Positions 10,011 to 50,712 of a stretch of DNA of 64,000 nucleotides are shown here, in pieces. The stretch's first letter is position 1, and each line of letters starts with the position of its first letter. The translations under genes and the position numbers were made by a program. The notes under the pieces are model-generated. The model did not search any database. It was not told the origin of the DNA and saw only the letters and a program-made list of their open reading frames with translations. The DNA is from Flavobacteriales bacterium (GTDB taxonomy: Bacteria > Bacteroidota > Bacteroidia > Flavobacteriales_F > PHOS-HE28), in contig JADZAC010000085.1 of NCBI GenBank assembly GCA_020852835.1, positions 1 to 64,000 of the forward strand. Reading direction: 5' to 3'.

Positions 10011-12449
10011 TCACCCCCGCAACTCCGCCCCTGTTTCCTTTTCCAGTGCCTGGCGGATGCGGCCCATGGCCTTCTCCACCTGCTCGTCGGTGAGGGTCTT
10101 CTCCGGATCCTGCAACACGAAGCTCAGCGCATAGCTCTTCTTGCCCGCAGGCAGCTTGTCCCCTTCATACACGTCGAAGAGGCCCACGGACCGCAGCAAC
10201 TTGTGCTCGGCATGGAAGGCGATGCGCTCCAAGGCGGCATACTCCACCGCACCATCAAGCAGCAGGCTCAGGTCGCGGCGCACGGCAGGAAACTTGGCCA
10301 CCTCGCAGTAGGTAACGCTGCCCTTGCGCAGCAGCCCCACCAGTTCCGCATCCCACAACTCGGCGTAGCAAGCGGGTTGGTGCACCTCGAATGCTTTCGC
10401 CACGTCCGGCCTCACTTCGCCCAACAAAGCCAACGTTCGTTTGCCGTACCTGACCTCCACCGCAGTGCCACAAAGGGGATGCTCCACGGCGGCGTATGTA
10501 CTTTGATGGGCCCAGCCAAGCCGCCTCATCAGCAGCTCCACCTCTGCCTTCACATCGGCCAGCTCAACCTGGCGTGCCTTGCCGCGCCAGCTTTCTGTTT
10601 GTTGTTGGCCGGTGACCAGCAGGGCGGTGCGTTCATGCTCCGTGGTCGCGCCATCGGCTTTCACCGCGTACGTGCGTCCCTGTTCAAAGAAGCGCAGATC
10701 GTGTTGCTGCCGTGCCAAGTTGTGCGCGGCGCTTTGCAGCAGGCCGAAGAGCAGGGTGGGGCGAAGCACGTCCAGCTCGGCGCTGAGGGGGTTCTTCAAC
10801 TTCACCAGTTCCTTTTCCTGCGCCGCGCCCAAGGCCACGGTCCGGGCGCCGTTCACCAACGAAGGCGTCATCACCTCACGGTAGCCGCGGGCGGCCAAAT
10901 GTTGCGCCAAGCGCACCCCGACGCCTTCCCCGCTGACCTCGGGGTGCAGCACGGCCGGCAGCTTGAGGCATTCGGGAATGGGCACTTGGTCGAAGCCATG
11001 GATGCGCAGCACCTCTTCCACCAGATCGGCCTCGCGCAGCACGTCCACGCGGTAGGGAGGCACCTGCACGCGCACGCTTTCCGCACCGTGCTGCAACATG
11101 CGGCAGTCCAGCAGCTCCAGGATCCGCACCACGGCTTGCGGGGCAATGGTCACCCCGCAAAGGCGGTCCACCGTAGCAAAGCGCAGCTCAATTTCGGCCC
11201 AGGGGAGCGGTTGGGCCAGATCGAATACCGCCGAGCTGACGCGGGCACCCGCAATTTCCTTCAGCAGCAGCGCAGTACGCTTGATCGCGTACACGGTGAT
11301 CTCCGGGTCCACGCCGCGCTCAAAACGGAATGAGGCATCGGTATTGAGGCCGTGCCTGCGTGCCGTGCGCCGGATGGTGACGGCATCGAAGCAGGCGCTC
11401 TCCAGGAAGATGGCGGTGGTGCTTTCGCCCACCCCGCTGTGGGCACCGCCGAAAACGCCGGCAAGGCAGGCGGCGCGTTCCGCATCGGCGATCACCAGGT
11501 CCTCGGGGTGCAGCACGCGGTCTTTGCCGTCCAAGGTGGTGAGGTGCTCACCGGGGGCGGCTCTTCGCACCACGATCCGCCCGCCGTTGAGCTTGTCGGC
11601 ATCGAAAGCATGGAGGGGCTGGCCCAGTTCGTGCTGCACGAAGTTGGTGACGTCCACCACGTTGTTGATGGGCTTCAGGCCGATGCTTTGCAAGCGTTCC
11701 TGCAACCAGGCAGGCGATGGACCCACCCGGATGTTGGTGAGCGTAAGCCCGGCATATCGCGGGCAAGCAGCGGTGTCACGTACTTCCACCGGAACCGTGC
11801 GCAGGTCATCGTCTTGCCGGAAGGCATCCACGGCAGGCAGCAGCACACGGGCGTTGGCACCGGTGCGCGCCACCAGGGCCGCTACCAGGTCGCGGGCCAC
11901 GCCCCAATGCCCCAGTGCGTCGGAGCGGTTGGGTGTAAGGCCGATCTCGAAAACGGAATCGCTCTTCAATTCCAACTGCGCGGCAGCCGGGGTGCCGATA
12001 ACGGCAACGGGATCCAGCACCATGATGCCGGCGTGGTCAGCGCCCAGTCCCAGCTCATCGGCGGCGCAGATCATACCGTGGCTTTCCACCCCGCGGATCT
12101 TGGCCTTTTTGATCGTGAAGGGCTCGCCGGCGGCCGGATGCAGGGTGGTGCCCACCGTGGCCACAAGCACCTTTTGGCCTGCCGCCACATTGGGTGCGCC
12201 GCACACGATCTGCGATGGGGTGCCTTCCCCGATGTTCACCGAGCACACCTGCAGGCGATCGGCGCCGGGGTGTTTTTCACAACTGAGCACTTCTCCCACC
12301 ACCACACCGGCCAGCATGCCCGGAACGGGTTCCACGGGTTCCACGCTCTCCACCTCCAGGCCGGTGCTGGTGAGTAGGGCCGCCACCTCCCGTGGTGCCA
12401 AGGGGCCTGCATCGGCCAACGTACGGAGCCAGTTCCATGAAATGCGCAT
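10011..12449 (-). CDS. pheT: Phenylalanine-tRNA ligase beta subunit
   Basis: The 812-residue protein has the full domain order of PheT. It has an N-terminal MRISWNWLRTLADAGPL segment, an EMAP/OB-type tRNA-binding domain at about 40-150 (VGEVLSCEKHPGADRLQVC), the B3/4 editing domain around 200-370 (ALGHWGVARDLVAAL and following), the B5 domain around 400-480, the catalytic-like core, and the C-terminal anticodon-binding FDX-ACB domain (CEVAKFPAVRRDLSLLLDGA to the end). With PheS (not in this window) it forms the alpha2-beta2 enzyme charging tRNA-Phe; the B3/4 domain clears mischarged Tyr. The gene stands alone, separated from pheS. Confidence 0.96.
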   Translation of the reverse strand: MRISWNWLRTLADAGPLAPREVAALLTSTGLEVESVEPVEPVPGMLAGVVVGEVLSCEKHPGADRLQVCSVNIGEGTPSQIVCGAPNVAAGQKVLVATVGTTLHPAAGEPFTIKKAKIRGVESHGMICAADELGLGADHAGIMVLDPVAVIGTPAAAQLELKSDSVFEIGLTPNRSDALGHWGVARDLVAALVARTGANARVLLPAVDAFRQDDDLRTVPVEVRDTAACPRYAGLTLTNIRVGPSPAWLQERLQSIGLKPINNVVDVTNFVQHELGQPLHAFDADKLNGGRIVVRRAAPGEHLTTLDGKDRVLHPEDLVIADAERAACLAGVFGGAHSGVGESTTAIFLESACFDAVTIRRTARRHGLNTDASFRFERGVDPEITVYAIKRTALLLKEIAGARVSSAVFDLAQPLPWAEIELRFATVDRLCGVTIAPQAVVRILELLDCRMLQHGAESVRVQVPPYRVDVLREADLVEEVLRIHGFDQVPIPECLKLPAVLHPEVSGEGVGVRLAQHLAARGYREVMTPSLVNGARTVALGAAQEKELVKLKNPLSAELDVLRPTLLFGLLQSAAHNLARQQHDLRFFEQGRTYAVKADGATTEHERTALLVTGQQQTESWRGKARQVELADVKAEVELLMRRLGWAHQSTYAAVEHPLCGTAVEVRYGKRTLALLGEVRPDVAKAFEVHQPACYAELWDAELVGLLRKGSVTYCEVAKFPAVRRDLSLLLDGAVEYAALERIAFHAEHKLLRSVGLFDVYEGDKLPAGKKSYALSFVLQDPEKTLTDEQVEKAMGRIRQALEKETGAELRG

Positions 12450-12476: not shown

Positions 12477-12908
12477 GCGGCAATCGGCCGATGGTTTCCG
12501 CCAAGTGCTGCGGTCAGCGCGCGGGGAAGCTCTGCCTGACGCGAGAAATGGTGCGACGCCCCGGGGCGGTATTTCGCCAGTGATGGCACGCTGCGTTCTG
12601 TGGCCCGCTTGGGTGCTGCCCGTGGGCGGTTCCGCCCGTGACCCCGGAGCGGGCAAGGGCGATCGCGTCAAGTTCCCCATGCTGTGTGTTATCTGCGATT
12701 GCGGCATTCTTCCGGGCCGGATCCCGGCAGAATTCCTAACCCCGGCGCTGTGTAACACCCATCGAGGGTTCCAATGGCACCACTAGGCTTGGCCCCAGCG
12801 AGGTCGTACATCGTGGCACTTGCGGCAGGGAAGGAGTTCCAGCCCCGGAGGGTGAGGTACAGGTCCCCCTATTCACGCCTTGCGGATGCGCTTGCCCTGG
12901 GCGCATTA
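12477..12908. other. Non-coding stretch upstream of mobile element copy A
   Basis: No convincing gene is seen. The last 24 bases (12885-12908, GATGCGCTTGCCCTGGGCGC and ATTA) repeat almost exactly at 13555-13578. The first part of that repeat looks like the right terminus of another element of the same family facing the left end of copy A. Confidence 0.5.
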
Positions 12909-13066
12909 GGGCAAACGCATCTAATAATTCCTCCTCATGGGCCATTGAGGGTCCATGGATCATCTTGATGATCGTTGGATCTGTCTTTGCACTTGGCGCT
13001 GGATGGCAAGGCCTAAGACCTTCATGATGCAGCTGCTCCTTGGGTGCCTCTTCCAAGGGCCAAAGG

Positions 13067-13115
13067 CCCGCAACATGCAAGCCCATGGCACCGCCATGGG
13101 CTTGCATGTTGCGGG
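13067..13115 (+). repeat. Perfect 23-bp hairpin inside copy A
   Basis: 13067-13089 is the exact inverse of 13093-13115, with a three-base loop ACC. The inner core is CCCATGGCACCGCCATGGG. Copy B has the same hairpin with a few changes, including pairs that would be G:U in RNA. The same core recurs at 13217-13257 with different arms. Confidence 0.85.
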
Positions 13116-13216
13116 TCCGAGCGGGGCTGAAGGCCACGCACATAGGCCAGGTAGACCGGGGCAATGAAAGACAAGGCTCATGATGTTCCGGGCCTACAGC
13201 CCTCTGCCGCATCTAC

Positions 13217-13257
13217 GCACACTTCAGCCCATGGCACCGCCATGGGCTGAAGTGTGC
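13217..13257 (+). repeat. Perfect 19-bp hairpin inside copy A, absent from copy B
   Basis: 13217-13235 is the exact inverse of 13239-13257 around the loop ACC. The core AGCCCATGGCACCGCCATGG is the same as in the hairpin at 13067-13115, but the outer arm (GCACACTTC) is local sequence duplicated in inverted form. Copy B reads straight through from CACACTTCAG to CACGGTGTTGG, so this hairpin was added in copy A. Confidence 0.85.
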
Positions 13258-13338
13258 CGTGCCTTCAGCACGGCATTGGCCATTGTACTGAGCGGGATCA
13301 GCCCAGTTCAAGGCCTATCGGGCGCGCTCATTCAACCA

Positions 13339-13501
13339 AGAGCCTGTTCAGGATCTCTTGAACGAAGGACTCCGTGGCTATTTTTCGTTCAGGCGAAGCC
13401 GGAAAATCATCGCGTAGCGGTGTCTACGGGATCATTTTCCGGTGAAGCAAGGGCGGAAAAGAGACCGGAGGACGAGTTTGAAGAGATCCTAAACAGGCTC
13501 T
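13339..13501 (+). mobile_element. Nested 163-bp inverted-repeat element (MITE-like)
   Basis: The two ends are inverse copies over about 25 bases: the left begins AGAGCCTGTTCAGGATCTC and the right ends GAGATCCTAAACAGGCTCT. A second, inner inverse pair (CCGGAAAATCATC against GATCATTTTCCGG) makes most of the unit foldable. Copy B lacks it at the equivalent place. The flanks are too short to define a target duplication. It has no coding capacity. Ends starting GAGCCTGTT are common in IS5-type elements from general knowledge, so it may be a non-autonomous derivative; that is inference. Confidence 0.6.
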
Positions 13502-13621
13502 AAGGGCCAAGGCATTATTGAGCCAGGTTTGAATGATGGCCGGCCCGTAGTTTAGATGCGCTTGCCTTGGGCGCATTAGCGGATCTGCCGGGCATGTGTA
13601 AATTGGCTCGTTCATCCGCGA

Positions 13622-16600
13622 ATGAGTTGGCGCCCATTTTTTCCGTCACAGGCGTGCGCCATGGTGGCCATGTTGTGGTTGGTGCCAAAGCCCGGGCAAG
13701 CACAACTGACCGCAGATGCGGGCAATGATGTGGTGATCTGCGCAGGCAGCCCGACAACCTTGGGCGGGGCGGCGGCCACCGGAGGCGTGCCACCGTACAC
13801 ATACGCGTGGACGCCGGCGGCGGGCCTGAGCAGTGCTATGGGATTGCATCCCCAGTGCACGGCCACCGCCACCACTACCTACACGCTTACTGCCACGGAT
13901 GCCAACGGCCTCTCCGGTACCAGCCAGGTTACCGTGACGGTCAAGCCGGTGCCCGCGGTCAACCTTGCCTGCACCAATGCCACCAGCTCCATGTACGGCG
14001 GGGTGCTCACCTTCAGCGTGTGCGGATTGGGCGCAAATCCCTACAACTTCGATTTCGTGGATGCCACATCGGCGTTGCCTGGGGCCAGCTATTCGATCAC
14101 ATGGGGAAACGGGCAGAACGGGACCTTCGGAAGCAGTGGTTGGAGCGCCACCGAGCAGTTCCCCTTCGGGCTGAGCACCGGCAGCTATACGGTGCAACAA
14201 CCGGCGCCGAACAACTGCAGCATTACCGTGCCCTTCAATGTGTTCGTGGGGGAGGTGCCCTTGGGCGGCCTCAGCGTGGTGTCCAATTCCTCGGTGTGCA
14301 CCGGCAGTCCGGTCAGTTTTGAGTGGAACAACTTCAGCAGCAACCCGCCGGGCACCCTCTATATCGTGAACTACGGCGATGGGAACATCGATACGTTGCC
14401 GCAGCCTCCACAAGCCGCCTTCGATCACGTCTACACGCAATCCTCCTGTGCCGTGGGAGGCGAGTATACCATCGCGTGGAGCATCACCAACCCCTGCGAT
14501 GTCCGTACCGGTTCCATCAACCAGATCCGGGTGTCGGGCGCGCCGGTGGCGGACTTCACCATCACGCCCAACGACACGGCCTGCGTGAACAGCACCGTGT
14601 ATTTCAATGACATCAGCCAGGGAACGCAGGCGCCGGCATGCGTGGGGCCCAAGCATATCTGGTCCATCAGCCCGGCCACCGGATGGAACGCCGCCGGGGC
14701 GATGGGAAGCACCAACGGCCAACCTGCGGTGCCGGGCGTGTGGACCAGCGGGGCGGCCTCGCTCGGGGTCACCTTCAATACTCCGGGCACCTATACGGTG
14801 ACCGATGTGGCCGGCAACATCTGTTCGGTGGACACGGTGGTGCGCACCATCTGCGTGGAACAACCGCCGCAACCGGCCTTCACCGTATCGGCCACCACGG
14901 GCTGCACCCCGCTGGTGGTGAACACGAACAACACCAGCACCAGCCCCAACAGTTGTTCCACGCGCTACAACTGGAGTGCTGCCGCCAACAGTGCCGCATG
15001 CGGCGGTACGGCCGCTGCAGCATTCAGCGGGGGTACCAACGCAGGCACCTTCGAACCCCAGTTCACCCTCACGGGGGGCGGGAGCTATACCCTGCTTTTG
15101 CAGGCCATCAACAGTTGCGGCACCTACCCCGTAAGCCAGGTGGTGAACGTGGGCGCCCCGCCCCAGGTGGCCTTGAACGCTCCCGGTACCATTTGTGAAG
15201 GGCAGGCCATCAGCCCTGCAGCCACCTTCAATGCCTGCGGCACCCCCATTACCGGTTACTGGTGGAGCACGGCCGGGGGCAACCCCGCCAACAGCAGCTC
15301 ACAGGTGCCGGGGGCGATCACCTACGCGGCCCCGGGCGGCTACACCGTCATAGCCTCGGCGTTTTCCGCATGCAGCTCCGGTATGGCCAGCGTGCCCCTC
15401 ACCGTGGCCCCGTTGCCTGCCGCACCTGTGGTGGGCGGACCCATCACCTTGTGCGTAGGGGAGGACCTCCAGCTTTCCGCGGCACCGGTGCCCGGAGTTA
15501 CCTTCCAGTGGACAGGCCCCAACGGCTTTTCCTCCGCGCTGTCCAACCCCATGATCAACGGGGTGACCGCGGCGGCGCAAGGCACCTACACCGTTACCGC
15601 CATGGCAGGCAGCTGCAGCGGTCCTTCCAGCACTGTGGTTGTAACGGTGAACCCGGCGCCGGTGCTGGGCATCTCACCGGCAAATCCGGCGGTATGCGCC
15701 GGAGATCCCATAACCCTTATGGGCAGCGGCGGGGCAAACTACCAATGGGAGGTGGGCGGTGTGCCGGTGGGCAGCGGTAGCCCGTTCACCTTTTGGCCTT
15801 CGGTAACGGCCACGGTGGTGCTGCACGGTGATGCCAACGGCTGCAGTGCGGCCACCAGCACCTTGCTCACGGTGCACCCGTTGCCTGCCGTGAATGCCGG
15901 GCCGGACCTGGTATTCTGCGAAAGCACGGCACCCCAGGCCTTGTCGTTTTCTCCGCCGGGCGGAACGTGGAGCGGCAGCCCGGATGTGGACAACGCCGGG
16001 AACTTCACTCCCGCAGCCCAAGGAGGGCATAGCCTGGTGTACACGGTGGTCAGTCCACAAGGATGCATCAATTCGGATGTGGTGCAGGTGACCGTGACCG
16101 CTCCTCCACCCCCGGCCAGCGCCGGTGGCGATACCACCATTTGCCTCAACGCGCCCGCCGTGCAGCTCACTGGATCACCCGGCGGTGGAACCTGGAGCGG
16201 AGCCATCACCAGCGGGGGGCTGTTCACCCCGGCCTCCCCGGGCAGCTTTATCGTGAGCTATGCCTTGGGTTCGGGAAGCTGCTCCACCAGCGATCAAGCC
16301 CAAGTCACCGTATTGCCCTTGCCGGTGATCAACCCCGGGGCGGACCAGCAAGTGTGCATCGATGTCCCGCCCTTTGCGCTGAACGCGACACCCGCCGGGG
16401 GTACGTGGAGCGGTGCGGGGACCAGCGGCGGCAGCTTTGACCCGCTGGCAGCAGCTGCCGGCCCGCATCTGCTCCTTTACTCCTTCACCGATGCGAATGG
16501 CTGTGCCAATACCGCAACGCGCACCATCACCGTAAACGCCCTGCCCGCCGTGCAGGCCGGCAATGATGCCACCTTTTGCGACCAGCCCATGGCCCAAACC

Positions 16601-19600
16601 CTCACGGGCTTTGCCCCGCCCGGCGGCACCTGGAGCGGGGCCGGGGTCGCTCCCGGCGGCAGCTTCACGCCCAGTGGCCCGGGCAGCTTCCCGCTCACGT
16701 ACACCTTCACCGATGCCAACGGTTGCACCGCGGCCGATGGCCTCACGGTCACCGTGATCACCATCACCGATCCCGCATCCGCTGGAAATGACACGGCCGT
16801 TTGCGTCAACAGCGGCGCCCTGCAACTGGCCGGAAACCCAGGCGGCGGCATATGGACCGGCCCGCAGGTGGATGCCGCCGGGCTGTTCGATCCCGCAGTG
16901 GACGGGAGCTTCACCCTTACTTACAGCGTGGGCGCCGGCTCGTGCACCACGCAAGACCAAGTGGACATCACCGTGCATGCGTTGCCGGCGATCGTGCTTT
17001 CGGGCTTGGATGATGCCTGCGCGGATGCGCCACCGATCACCTTCGGCGCCACGCCTCCCGGTGGCAGCTGGCAGGGAACGGGCATTACCGATCCCGTGCT
17101 GGGCGTGTTCGATCCCGCGATCAGTGGTGCGGGCAACTTTCCGGTCACCTACACCATCACCGACGCCAATGGCTGCACCAATAGTTTGACACAGGTGATG
17201 GCCGTGCTGACCGTGCCCGCCGCGGCCTTCACCCATGGGCCCATCGCCTGTGCCATGGCGCCGTTCCCATTCACCGGCACAAGCACGGGGGCCACCTCTT
17301 GGAGCTGGGACTTCGGCGACGGGGGCAGTTCCACCCTCGGATCACCGGCCCACGTGTACGCCGACACCGGCACCTATACCGTTACGCTCACCGCGTTCAC
17401 CGGCCTCGGCTGCTCCAGCTCGGCCACGGCAACGGTCACCGTGTGGGAGGGCCCTTCCGTCGGCTTCGACTTTGATCCGGCGCAGGGCTGCGGCCCCTTG
17501 CTGGTCAGCGCCACCAACAACAGTTCGGGGAACGGCCTGAGCTACAGTTGGGATTTCGGCGACGGTTCCACCTCTACGGACCAGCAGCCGCCCCCGCATG
17601 CATTCAGCGCAGGGGTGATGGGCGATACCACCTACGCCATTACGCTCACGGCCGGCAACGTGTGCGGCTCGGTTGATTCCACGGGCTTGGTCACCGTGCA
17701 TCCCGCGCCCACCGCCCTGTTCGGGCCGGACTTCGATGCAGGTTGCTCCCCGTGGCCGGTGACCTTCAGCAACGTCACCGTCGGACAGGCCGACAGTTAT
17801 TTCTGGGACTTCGGTGATGGCACCACCAGCACCACCCCGGACAGCCTGGTGCAGCACACCTACTACGCCAACTCCGCCGACAGCGTGTACACCATCACCC
17901 TGGCCGCCTCCAATGCCTGCGGAAGCGACACGGCCAGCTACACCATCACTACGTTGCCCAACACCATCACAGCCTTCTTCAACACCGATACCACCATCGG
18001 CTGCGTACCGCTCACAGTGAACTTCACCCAGTACAGCATCGGCGTTACCAACTGGCATTGGGACCTCGGGGACGGCAACGTGTCCACCGCGATGAACGTG
18101 AGCCACACCTACTCGACCCCCGGCACCTACACCGCCACGCTGTTCGGCGATAATGGATGCAGCCATGACACCGTGGCCGTGACCATCACCGTGCAGCCTG
18201 CGGCGTTGGCGGATTTCACCATCGGCCCCGGCCTGCACTGCGCCGGTGCGCCGGTGCAATTCACCAACAACAGCCCGTCGCCGGCGGGCGTGCATTGGGA
18301 TTTCGGCGACGGCGGCACCTCCACGCTCACCACGCCCGTGCACGGCTATGCGGCGGCAGGCACCTATAGCGTCACGCTCAGCGTTACGTCCACCCTTGCT
18401 CCTTGCCCGGCGGTGCTCACCCAGCCGGTTACCGTACTGCCCGCACCGGTTGCCGCCATCGTGGCCGACAGCTCCAGTGGCTGCATGCCGCTGGAGGTCC
18501 AGTTCACCAACACCGGAACCAACAGCGATTTCCAACAATGGGAACTCGGTGACGGCAACACGAGCGGCGCCGCCGCGCCGGCGCACACCTTCACGGCCGC
18601 GGGAGCCTACACGGTGCAGTTGGTCGCCGAGCACCTCAATGGCTGCACGGACACCGCAACCACCGTGATCACGGTTTTCCCGCTGCCGCAGAGCGCCTTC
18701 ACCCTGGCGCAGGACCACAGCTGCACCACGCCCGCCACCCTGCAGTTGTTCAGCAATGCCGCAGGAGCCGTGAGCTACAGCTGGGACCTTGGCAACGGTA
18801 GCGCCTCCTTGCTGAACAACCCCGTCGCCGTGTACGATGCGCCCGGCAGCTACACCATCACGCTCAACGTGGCGAACCAGTACGGCTGCACCCACGATAC
18901 CAGCAATGTGTTCGTGGTGCATCCCACGCCACTGGCGGCGTTCCTGGCGCAGCCGCAGCCCGCCTGCGCCGGATACCCCGTGTACTTCCAGAATCTTTCC
19001 GCCAATGCCAATGCCTTCCAATGGTCGTTCGGCGACGGGCAGCAGGCGGATGAAGCCGCCCCCGTGCACGCCTTCCCGGCAGGCAACTACACCGTGATGC
19101 TGATCGCCACGGGTGCGGGCGGTTGCTCCGATACCGCCGTGGTGCCCGGTGCCGTGCAGGTAAACCCCACGCCCATCGCCGCCTTCAGCTATCAACCCAT
19201 GCAAAGCACCTCCTATGCGCTGCAGTTCTTCAACCAGAGCATTGGCGCCACCAGTTGGCTGTGGGATTTCGGCGATGGCCTGTCGTCCACCGCACAGGAG
19301 CCCATGCACCTCTTCCCGGCCGGGCCGGATGACCTCTACCCGTTCTGCCTGGTGGCCAGCAATGACCATGGTTGCACGGACACCCTGTGCCGGTCCGTGG
19401 TGGCGGTGAGCGACCCGGAGGTGTTTGCGCCCAACGCCTTCACGCCGGACCAGGACGGGTTGAACGAATCATTCCGGCCCGTGCTCAACGGCTTTGAGAA
19501 GTGGACCTATGACTTTTACGTGTTCGACCGATGGGGAGAGCAGGTGCACCACACCCGTGACCGCTGGGCTGCATGGGAGGGCAGCTACAACGGCCAGCCC

Positions 19601-19699
19601 GTGAAGAGCGATGTGTACGTGTGGAAGGTGGTGCTGAACCGCGACGGCGATGAGCGCGTGTATTACGGCCACGTGACCGTGGTACGGGGATCGGATTGA
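13622..19699 (+). CDS. Giant adhesin-like surface protein with T9SS type B (gliding-associated) C-terminal domain
   Basis: The 2025-residue protein starts MSWRPFFPSQACAMVAMLWL, an acceptable signal peptide ending near GQAQ. The first half is an array of Ig-like modules, six of which carry a PxGGTWSG motif followed by SFxP and a DANGC strand. From about residue 1195 to 1925 come nine PKD-type repeats with WDFGDG or close variants. The last 95 residues (VFAPNAFTPDQDGLNE, VFDRWGEQVHHT, SDVYVWKV) are the gliding-associated CHU_C/type B sorting domain. Such proteins leave through T9SS and act as long surface adhesins or motility-linked fibres. The internal Met near residue 14 is another possible start. 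It is transcribed alone, just below mobile element copy A. Confidence 0.9.
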   Translation: MSWRPFFPSQACAMVAMLWLVPKPGQAQLTADAGNDVVICAGSPTTLGGAAATGGVPPYTYAWTPAAGLSSAMGLHPQCTATATTTYTLTATDANGLSGTSQVTVTVKPVPAVNLACTNATSSMYGGVLTFSVCGLGANPYNFDFVDATSALPGASYSITWGNGQNGTFGSSGWSATEQFPFGLSTGSYTVQQPAPNNCSITVPFNVFVGEVPLGGLSVVSNSSVCTGSPVSFEWNNFSSNPPGTLYIVNYGDGNIDTLPQPPQAAFDHVYTQSSCAVGGEYTIAWSITNPCDVRTGSINQIRVSGAPVADFTITPNDTACVNSTVYFNDISQGTQAPACVGPKHIWSISPATGWNAAGAMGSTNGQPAVPGVWTSGAASLGVTFNTPGTYTVTDVAGNICSVDTVVRTICVEQPPQPAFTVSATTGCTPLVVNTNNTSTSPNSCSTRYNWSAAANSAACGGTAAAAFSGGTNAGTFEPQFTLTGGGSYTLLLQAINSCGTYPVSQVVNVGAPPQVALNAPGTICEGQAISPAATFNACGTPITGYWWSTAGGNPANSSSQVPGAITYAAPGGYTVIASAFSACSSGMASVPLTVAPLPAAPVVGGPITLCVGEDLQLSAAPVPGVTFQWTGPNGFSSALSNPMINGVTAAAQGTYTVTAMAGSCSGPSSTVVVTVNPAPVLGISPANPAVCAGDPITLMGSGGANYQWEVGGVPVGSGSPFTFWPSVTATVVLHGDANGCSAATSTLLTVHPLPAVNAGPDLVFCESTAPQALSFSPPGGTWSGSPDVDNAGNFTPAAQGGHSLVYTVVSPQGCINSDVVQVTVTAPPPPASAGGDTTICLNAPAVQLTGSPGGGTWSGAITSGGLFTPASPGSFIVSYALGSGSCSTSDQAQVTVLPLPVINPGADQQVCIDVPPFALNATPAGGTWSGAGTSGGSFDPLAAAAGPHLLLYSFTDANGCANTATRTITVNALPAVQAGNDATFCDQPMAQTLTGFAPPGGTWSGAGVAPGGSFTPSGPGSFPLTYTFTDANGCTAADGLTVTVITITDPASAGNDTAVCVNSGALQLAGNPGGGIWTGPQVDAAGLFDPAVDGSFTLTYSVGAGSCTTQDQVDITVHALPAIVLSGLDDACADAPPITFGATPPGGSWQGTGITDPVLGVFDPAISGAGNFPVTYTITDANGCTNSLTQVMAVLTVPAAAFTHGPIACAMAPFPFTGTSTGATSWSWDFGDGGSSTLGSPAHVYADTGTYTVTLTAFTGLGCSSSATATVTVWEGPSVGFDFDPAQGCGPLLVSATNNSSGNGLSYSWDFGDGSTSTDQQPPPHAFSAGVMGDTTYAITLTAGNVCGSVDSTGLVTVHPAPTALFGPDFDAGCSPWPVTFSNVTVGQADSYFWDFGDGTTSTTPDSLVQHTYYANSADSVYTITLAASNACGSDTASYTITTLPNTITAFFNTDTTIGCVPLTVNFTQYSIGVTNWHWDLGDGNVSTAMNVSHTYSTPGTYTATLFGDNGCSHDTVAVTITVQPAALADFTIGPGLHCAGAPVQFTNNSPSPAGVHWDFGDGGTSTLTTPVHGYAAAGTYSVTLSVTSTLAPCPAVLTQPVTVLPAPVAAIVADSSSGCMPLEVQFTNTGTNSDFQQWELGDGNTSGAAAPAHTFTAAGAYTVQLVAEHLNGCTDTATTVITVFPLPQSAFTLAQDHSCTTPATLQLFSNAAGAVSYSWDLGNGSASLLNNPVAVYDAPGSYTITLNVANQYGCTHDTSNVFVVHPTPLAAFLAQPQPACAGYPVYFQNLSANANAFQWSFGDGQQADEAAPVHAFPAGNYTVMLIATGAGGCSDTAVVPGAVQVNPTPIAAFSYQPMQSTSYALQFFNQSIGATSWLWDFGDGLSSTAQEPMHLFPAGPDDLYPFCLVASNDHGCTDTLCRSVVAVSDPEVFAPNAFTPDQDGLNESFRPVLNGFEKWTYDFYVFDRWGEQVHHTRDRWAAWEGSYNGQPVKSDVYVWKVVLNRDGDERVYYGHVTVVRGSD

Positions 19700-25299: not shown

Positions 25300-25571
25300 G
25301 GACAAACGCATCTAAAGGGCCACCATGGGGCCGCATGCCGCGGAGGGATGTACTGCATCCGGCGATGACCACCGATCGTATGCGGTGTTGGCCCTTCGGC
25401 CCTCGCATGCTGTGCATGCTGTGGAGTGCCGCTTCGCTAATGCTCAGGGCAGTGTATAGTTAAAGCCTGCTTACTAAACGTAAACTGCCCTGGGCGGAGC
25501 CGAAGGGCTGACCTCAAATCCTTGGGCTTCAAATGGATGATAGGGGTCCTTGAATTTTGGTGCGTTAGCCC
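25300..25571 (+). mobile_element. Non-coding inverted-repeat element, copy C (degenerate)
   Basis: The left end GGACAAACGCATCTAAA (25300-25316) matches the family terminus; the right end TTTTGGTGCGTTAGCCC (25555-25571) is its inverse at 13 of 17 positions. TGGTTTGCAGG (25287-25297) and TGGCTTTGCAGG (25572-25583) flank it as an imperfect direct repeat. The interior has its own hairpin, CAGGGCAGT at 25445-25453 against ACTGCCCTG at about 25484-25492. It shares no obvious interior with copies A or B. It fills most of the 612-base gap between the divergent porX and HD-hydrolase genes; no gene is seen there. Confidence 0.5.
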
Positions 25572-34962: not shown

Positions 34963-35413
34963 AAGCAAACGCATCCAATAGATCTTCCTCATGGGCCATT
35001 GAGGGTCCATGGATCATCTTGATGATCGTTGGATCTGTCTTTGCACTTCGCTGGGTGGCAAGGCCGAAGACCTGCCTGGTGCAGCTGCTCCGTGGGCACC
35101 GCTTCACAGGGCCAAAGGCCCGCGACATGCAAGCCCATGACATCGCCATGGGCTTGTATGTTGCGGGTCCGAGCGGGGCTGAAGGCCGCGCACATGGGCC
35201 AGGTAGATCGAGGCACTGAAAAACAAGGCTCATGATGTTTCGGGCCTACAGCCCTCTTACTTATCTACGCACACTTCAGCACGGTGTTGGCCGTTGTACT
35301 GAACGGGATAAGGCCAGTTCAAAGCCGATCGGGCGCGCTCATTCAACTACAAGCCACCCATCATTGAGCCAGGTTTGAAATAGGGCCGGCCTATAGCATA
35401 GATGCGTTTGCCC
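34963..35413 (+). mobile_element. Non-coding inverted-repeat element, copy B
   Basis: The left end AAGCAAACGCATCCAAT (34963-34979) and right end ATAGATGCGTTTGCCC (35398-35413) are inverse to each other. Outside them TGGCCGTGCCAGTT (34949-34962) and TGGTCGTGCCGGCT (35414-35427) agree at 11 of 14 positions, an aged target duplication. The interior matches copy A over most of its length but lacks the second hairpin and the 163-base insert. The hairpin with core CCCATGACATCGCCATGGG is slightly eroded. On the minus strand a short frame ends MAHEEDLLDAFA at a stop formed by the terminus itself. The element ends 62 bases before efp and touches its promoter. The rest of 34831-35474 holds no gene. Confidence 0.75.
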
Positions 35414-50482: not shown

Positions 50483-50712
50483 GGGCAAACGTATCTAAAT
50501 CGCTGTATTTGCCGGAAGCTTTTAGAAGGAATTGCTCTATGTTCTTGTTGTAAGGGGCTTCGGCTCCGCTCAGCCCAGTGTGCGCTTTAACGACAATTGA
50601 AAAGAGAAACTGGGCTGAGCGGAGCCGAAGCCCCAACGACGATCACTCACAAGCCGCTTGCAGTATCAGGTCCCCAGGGCATGGGTGGCCTACAATTTTA
50701 AAGCGTTTGCCC
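50483..50712 (+). mobile_element. Non-coding inverted-repeat element, copy D (best preserved ends)
   Basis: The left end GGGCAAACGTATCTAAAT (50483-50500) is mirrored by the right end ATTTTAAAGCGTTTGCCC (50695-50712). The 14 bases GGGGTGTTGGAGCA lie directly outside both ends (50469-50482 and 50713-50726) without a mismatch, an intact target duplication. Inside is a perfect 26-bp inverted repeat (50554-50579 against 50609-50634, starting GGGGCTTCGGCTCCGCTC) around a 29-base spacer. There is no coding capacity. Apart from the termini it shares no interior with copies A and B. It lies 50 bases upstream of the rnhB ATG. Confidence 0.8.

Follow-up and report, generated by a model that had tools for sequence, protein, structure and literature searches.

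In the 64-kb window, by which we mean the whole stretch of DNA analysed, part of a 96-contig draft genome of 3.44 Mb, two perfect hairpins are located between pheT (minus strand, 10011-12449) and the gene (13622-19699) for a PKD-repeat protein of 2025 aa that has a type IX secretion signal. Their arms of 23 bp (13067-13089/13093-13115) and 19 bp (13217-13235/13239-13257) are 100% paired around the loop ACC and have a common core, as the original prediction held, the shared stretch amounting to 23 nt (AGCCCATGGCACCGCCATGGGCT, at 13080-13102 and 13226-13248). Folded as single-stranded DNA, the left hairpin reaches -32.1 kcal/mol (z about -10.9) and the right hairpin -24.7 kcal/mol (z about -10.5), with none of 200 shuffles as stable in either case, and the pairing of the outer 15 bp (left) and 11 bp (right) past an 8-bp core is far above chance. 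An intrinsic terminator was ruled out, as a T-run is absent after either window hairpin, and an integron attC site was dropped, the R'/R'' core pairs not being seen by eye.

Both hairpins belong to outward-facing copies of a single motif, Acido-Lenti-1 (RF01687), which together measure 217 bp end to end (Table 1). The right-hand unit lies above the gathering score of 37 bits and is the sole Rfam match in the window, and the mirror unit, found in a genome-wide search, falls under that cut-off; about ten further good copies were identified in the same search. The search for the core that had been suggested as a check returned 6 perfect matches and numerous close ones across the genome, so it is not unique to this site. 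A complete unit would comprise a short hairpin, a free 5' spacer of about 24 nt, the 8-bp core hairpin, a conserved 3' linker of about 11 nt (CTGGTAT-type) and another short hairpin, and there is strong structure covariation in the core and the short hairpins.

Table 1. Features of the hairpin locus and of the related element copy in the window.
Feature	Positions	Strand	Details
Left target-site duplicate TGGGCGCATTA	12898-12908		Same 11 bp at 13568-13578
TIR element, copy A, with both hairpins inside	12909-13567	+	659 bp including nested repeat; ends GGGCAAACGCATCTAA (12909-12924) and inverse (13552-13567)
Left Acido-Lenti-1 unit (hairpin core, linker, short hairpin)	13056-13100	-	RF01687 32.7 bits; R1 53.6 bits
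Left short hairpin GGGCCAAAGGCCC	13057-13069	-	Sequence; place in RF01687/R1 match; extended arm overlaps
Left long hairpin	13067-13115		Core of 8 bp at 13082-13100; outer arms of 15 bp, self-complementary
Short hairpin GGGGCTGAAGGCC, spacer side of left unit	13123-13135		Sequence; same as outer short hairpin of other units
Short hairpin GGGCCTACAGCCC, spacer side of right unit	13190-13202		Sequence; matches place of GGGCCTTCAGCCC in Terriglobus units
Right long hairpin	13217-13257		Core at 13228-13246, with outer arms of 11 bp
Direct repeat CTTCAG, 5' copy	13222-13227	+	Deletion end point in copy B
Right Acido-Lenti-1 unit	13228-13272	+	RF01687 38.8 bits; R1 54.0 bits
Right short hairpin CGTGCCTTCAGCACG	13258-13272	+	ssDNA fold
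Direct repeat CTTCAG, 3' copy	13263-13268	+	41 bp between repeat starts absent from copy B
Nested palindromic repeat in element	13339-13501		Inverted arms 13339-13362/13478-13501; alignment
Right target-site duplicate TGGGCGCATTA	13568-13578		Same 11 bp at 12898-12908
Element, copy B	34963-35413	+	Left hairpin (35119-35167) decayed; right hairpin lost by deletion at 35270-35279

The hairpin pair lies within a longer repeat, of which blastn and alignment identified at least nine copies (A, B, C24, C44, C54, C5, C42, C38 and C39). Homologous copies start and stop at the ends of copy A, with unrelated flanks, and the element is MITE-like, having a TIR (GGGCAAACGCATC), a target-site duplication in copies A and C44 (GGCCGCAACGGC in the latter) and no transposase inside. 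A palindrome of 163 bp with arms AGAGCCTGTTCAGGATCTCTTGAA and their inverse is nested in A and C24, occurs in part in C44 and is absent in B, a distribution suggesting that element copies exchanged segments or that B lost the repeat. We additionally identified two shorter elements with GGGCAAACGCATC-type ends in the window, at 25300-25571 and 50483-50712, the latter with a clear direct repeat (GGGGTGTTGGAGCA) on both sides, and the family with such ends has many more copies across the genome.

Three genes in this genome encode TnpA_Y1 proteins of the Y---Q--HH type. Their products (147-151 aa) have the HuH motif DHVH and the motifs YIDGQEEHH, YIDNQEEHH and YINNQEEHH, match NF033573, and show the features that define subclass 1.2 (DH[IV]H, Y---Q--HH, about 148 aa; PMC6006769). 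The predicted TnpA fold was nearest to the TnpA of ISDra2 and IS608 in a fold search, the E. coli RAYT 4er8 ranking slightly lower, and a phmmer search against PDB sequences returned no match. Two of the three genes, both subclass 1.2-like (C21:44052-44504 and C1:19281-19730), are flanked by long hairpins like those in the window. Across 45 congeneric genomes, tnpA relatives of at least 49% identity mostly have adjoining long hairpins, several of which combine a CCCATGGC-type core with different arms; long hairpins were not found near congeneric tnpA genes of about 47% identity or less, nor near the third tnpA (C4), indicating that the association is confined to one clade. One congener (G022) has units and lacks tnpA in its draft assembly. 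The third, more distant subclass 1.2-type gene (L061, G000:C4, contig positions 11741-12172) has short hairpins of another family (GACCCTGAAGGGGTCGCACA) on its flanks, and other subclass 1.2 clades may have their own repeats. At contig positions of about 44750-44950 in L059 (G000:C21), two tandem half units stop mid-hairpin (..GCATACCAACCCAT then CGTTC..), resembling a palindrome severed in the middle.

We investigated how far the nine positions flanking the core on either side pair with one another, taking arms exchanged between hairpins as the control. Within the genome itself, 6.68 of 9 flanking positions were paired, compared with 3.80 ± 0.24 in this control, bearing out the expectation of perfect arms of different sequence at many sites, and in other genomes of the genus the values were 4.19 versus 2.67 ± 0.39. 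For 172 distinct units from other phyla, pairing reached 1.61 of 9 (swapped-arm control 1.77), with none above 5 and the first flanking position paired in just 2%; stems of at least 11 bp were almost absent outside Flavobacteriales, because the ancestral stem is of 8 bp. The linker is the conserved side, reading CTGGTAT or CTGGGAT in 100 of the 172 units, and the spacer is therefore usually the copied side.

Individual element copies differ in how far their arms correspond. In A, C24 and C44 the spacer complements the linker arm exactly (CTTGCATGTTGCGGG in A and C24), in C42, C38 and C5 it matches the linker only partly (..GCACGGG, with CTTGCA--GCACGGG in C42 and C38), and C54 shows the reverse conversion, its linker arm fitting the spacer and both arms being 2 nt shorter. 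The 3-nt loop is either ACC or its inverse GGT at the same place, and CTG or CAG in the hairpin pair flanking the C1 tnpA. The small hairpin of C42 is inverted as well; loop orientation is fixed in other phyla (90 GTT vs 1 AAC). Homogenised arms together with an inverted loop, both of which are found here, form the signature of template switching between inverted repeats as outlined in PMC8604942. The original prediction that the stems grew by template switching is thus largely supported by the converted arms and inverted loops, from which we infer the copying mechanism. As element copies exchange segments, the order and number of arm conversions are uncertain and event counts approximate.

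The long stems could instead be maintained by selection, if a longer hairpin were required by this lineage's TnpA, or by some other protein, and substitutions in one arm were compensated on the other. Such a need would be consistent with the covariation in the core and short hairpins and with the extended hairpin that lies 37-50 bp past the stop codon of the nearest tnpA genes in the genus; however, the upstream hairpins of these same genes are often not extended, and stepwise compensation poorly explains multi-base conversions with a matched length change, as in C54, loops that are exact inverses, or the partly paired state of the intermediates C42, C38 and C5. We consider this explanation clearly the less probable one, while noting that selection for a longer stem and template switching may act together.

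To place the units in a wider context, we used 80 homologous tnpA loci from public genomes of Verrucomicrobia, Acidobacteria, Lentisphaerae, Planctomycetes and other phyla, and R1, a broader motif model than RF01687 with rough E-values. There were 181 R1 matches in these loci, 155 of them within 1 kb of tnpA, corresponding to 1.03 per kb within this distance versus 0.054 per kb beyond it (about 19 times denser); the training set of R1 consisted partly of units near tnpA, and the Rfam model alone shows an equal pattern, with 20 of its 25 matches at its own cut-off within 700 bp of tnpA. Sixty of the 80 loci have a unit within 1 kb, and in the other 20 an R1 match within this distance was not found at the threshold used. 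Outward pairs directly around tnpA occur in 29 loci, with units clustered at around -45 to -65 and +43 to +62, most of them about 55 nt from the start and stop codons. Subclass 1.2 TnpA_Y1 had been described as being without REP or terminal hairpin structures (PMC6006769); the 60 loci contradict this description rather than the motif-based membership of the gene, suggesting that subclass 1.2 has REPs after all, in an unfamiliar form. Across 198 Bacteroidota genomes, the R1 motif and a close tnpA occur together in 11 (Fisher p = 5e-11), with exceptions in both directions: 5 of the 16 genomes with a close tnpA lack R1 matches, and 5 with matches lack tnpA. In Terriglobus albidus, the units share the sequence TATAG..CGGGCCTTCAGCCCT, variable spacer, core, linker, ..GCGCT, and conservation ends right after the last short hairpin (..GCGCT).

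Acido-Lenti-1 is a candidate sRNA in Rfam (PMC2864571) and is given a lower-case 'y' under 'RNA?' by Weinberg et al.; with its strong structure covariation, it might be a real small or cis-acting RNA whose nearness to tnpA reflects regulation of that gene. This seems unlikely to us, as the units face outwards on both sides of tnpA, are dispersed (at least 149 in T. albidus) and form doublets of the same polarity (29 of 29 close pairs outward among the 111 T. albidus matches listed), and thus suit DNA ends better than one RNA gene; moreover, the window hairpins, with no trailing T-run, are not intrinsic terminators. Acido-Lenti-1 copies in Tannerella forsythia, which lie downstream of protease genes and have been proposed as their regulators (PMC13298647), may perhaps be just transposase-linked repeats.

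Finally, copy B lacks the second hairpin, CACACTTCAG at 35270-35279 being followed directly by CACGG, and had been taken for the state before insertion. The right hairpin is present in seven of the nine element copies, including the most divergent (C39), and absent in B and C38; the backbone tree groups B with A and C24 (100% support) and places C38 elsewhere, so that it is not the sister of B, and the junctions in both hairpin-less copies lie at short direct repeats (CTTCAG/CTTCAG in B, TTCCAG/TTCAG in C38). Copy B is therefore a deletion, its hairpin lost between the CTTCAG repeats, and two deletions at palindrome-flanking short direct repeats explain B and C38 better than seven insertions at the same point. 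The idea that the 19-base core moves alone into sites like that of copy B, and then grows its arms from local sequence, draws on the variation of arms between sites and on the likeness of copy B to an unoccupied site whose 6-bp duplicate would be CTTCAG, but is very improbable given the shared position of the hairpin in even the deepest copy and the conservation of the adjoining linker and short hairpin across phyla, so that the core comes with them as the centre of a larger unit inside the TIR element.

We propose that each window hairpin forms the middle stem of a REP-like single-stranded DNA unit, that such units flank and are probably served by subclass 1.2 TnpA_Y1, and that their spacer has been overwritten by template switching in this lineage, a reading to which we assign a probability of about 0.72. 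The two outward-facing units would constitute a REPIN-like doublet, carried in a MITE-like TIR element that is itself copied around the genome, and TnpA would probably bind and recognise the units and spread them in trans. During replication, the nascent strand may fold at the core palindrome, copy the opposite arm and then switch back, replacing the spacer beside the core with a copy of the linker, or sometimes the reverse, which would yield perfect stems of 16-23 bp that differ in sequence and sometimes have an inverted loop. It is conceivable, if doubtful, that arm copying is part of the life cycle of the element, with TnpA opening or holding the single-stranded hairpin, the spacer being resynthesised from the linker and the ends rewritten as perfect stems; speculatively, the extended stems might then hide a linker read by TnpA and switch the unit off.

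This reading gives a likely identity to Acido-Lenti-1, which has been an Rfam 'sRNA' without an assigned function since 2010 and which recent genome papers still speculate to be a regulator (e.g. PMC13298647), and candidate DNA partners to a TnpA subclass described without them. The hairpins also form a natural series, from 8-bp stems through half-converted ones to perfect 23-bp stems with inverted loops, that lets template switching at bacterial palindromes be dated and tested.

The units resemble several known systems in part. Relative to Rfam Acido-Lenti-1, the two-hairpin layout is identical and the unit at 13228-13272 exceeds the gathering threshold, whereas the first stem extends from 8 bp to up to 23 bp in this genus and the evidence favours a DNA repeat of a transposase system. 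Homogenised arms, an inverted loop and multi-base changes are shared with quasi-palindrome template-switch mutagenesis, as outlined in PMC8604942 and PMC3820800, although here the process would be repeated on dispersed bacterial repeats and lengthen the stem past its original foot. The IS200/IS605 elements IS608 and ISDra2 have the same TnpA sequence family and predicted fold, and subterminal hairpins near both gene ends; unlike their same-strand left and right ends, which move with their own tnpA, the units here are mutually inverted, and few tnpA copies accompany many hairpin copies. The REP/REPIN systems of RAYT (TnpA_REP; REPtrons) likewise have hairpins on both sides of a single-domain HuH-Y1 gene, dispersed in trans and in inverted doublets, as in the 29 outward-pair loci and the T. 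albidus doublets, and the CT after each hairpin here is the common REP cleavage dinucleotide (PMC8266576). They differ in that the GTAG/GTGG tetranucleotide is absent directly 5' of the hairpin foot here, the units having TATAG/ATG-type linkers before the short hairpin, in the three-hairpin unit, and in a transposase of subclass 1.2, reported without REPs (PMC6006769). The unit thus appears to behave like a REP/REPIN system for subclass 1.2, with putative cleavage and joining by TnpA.
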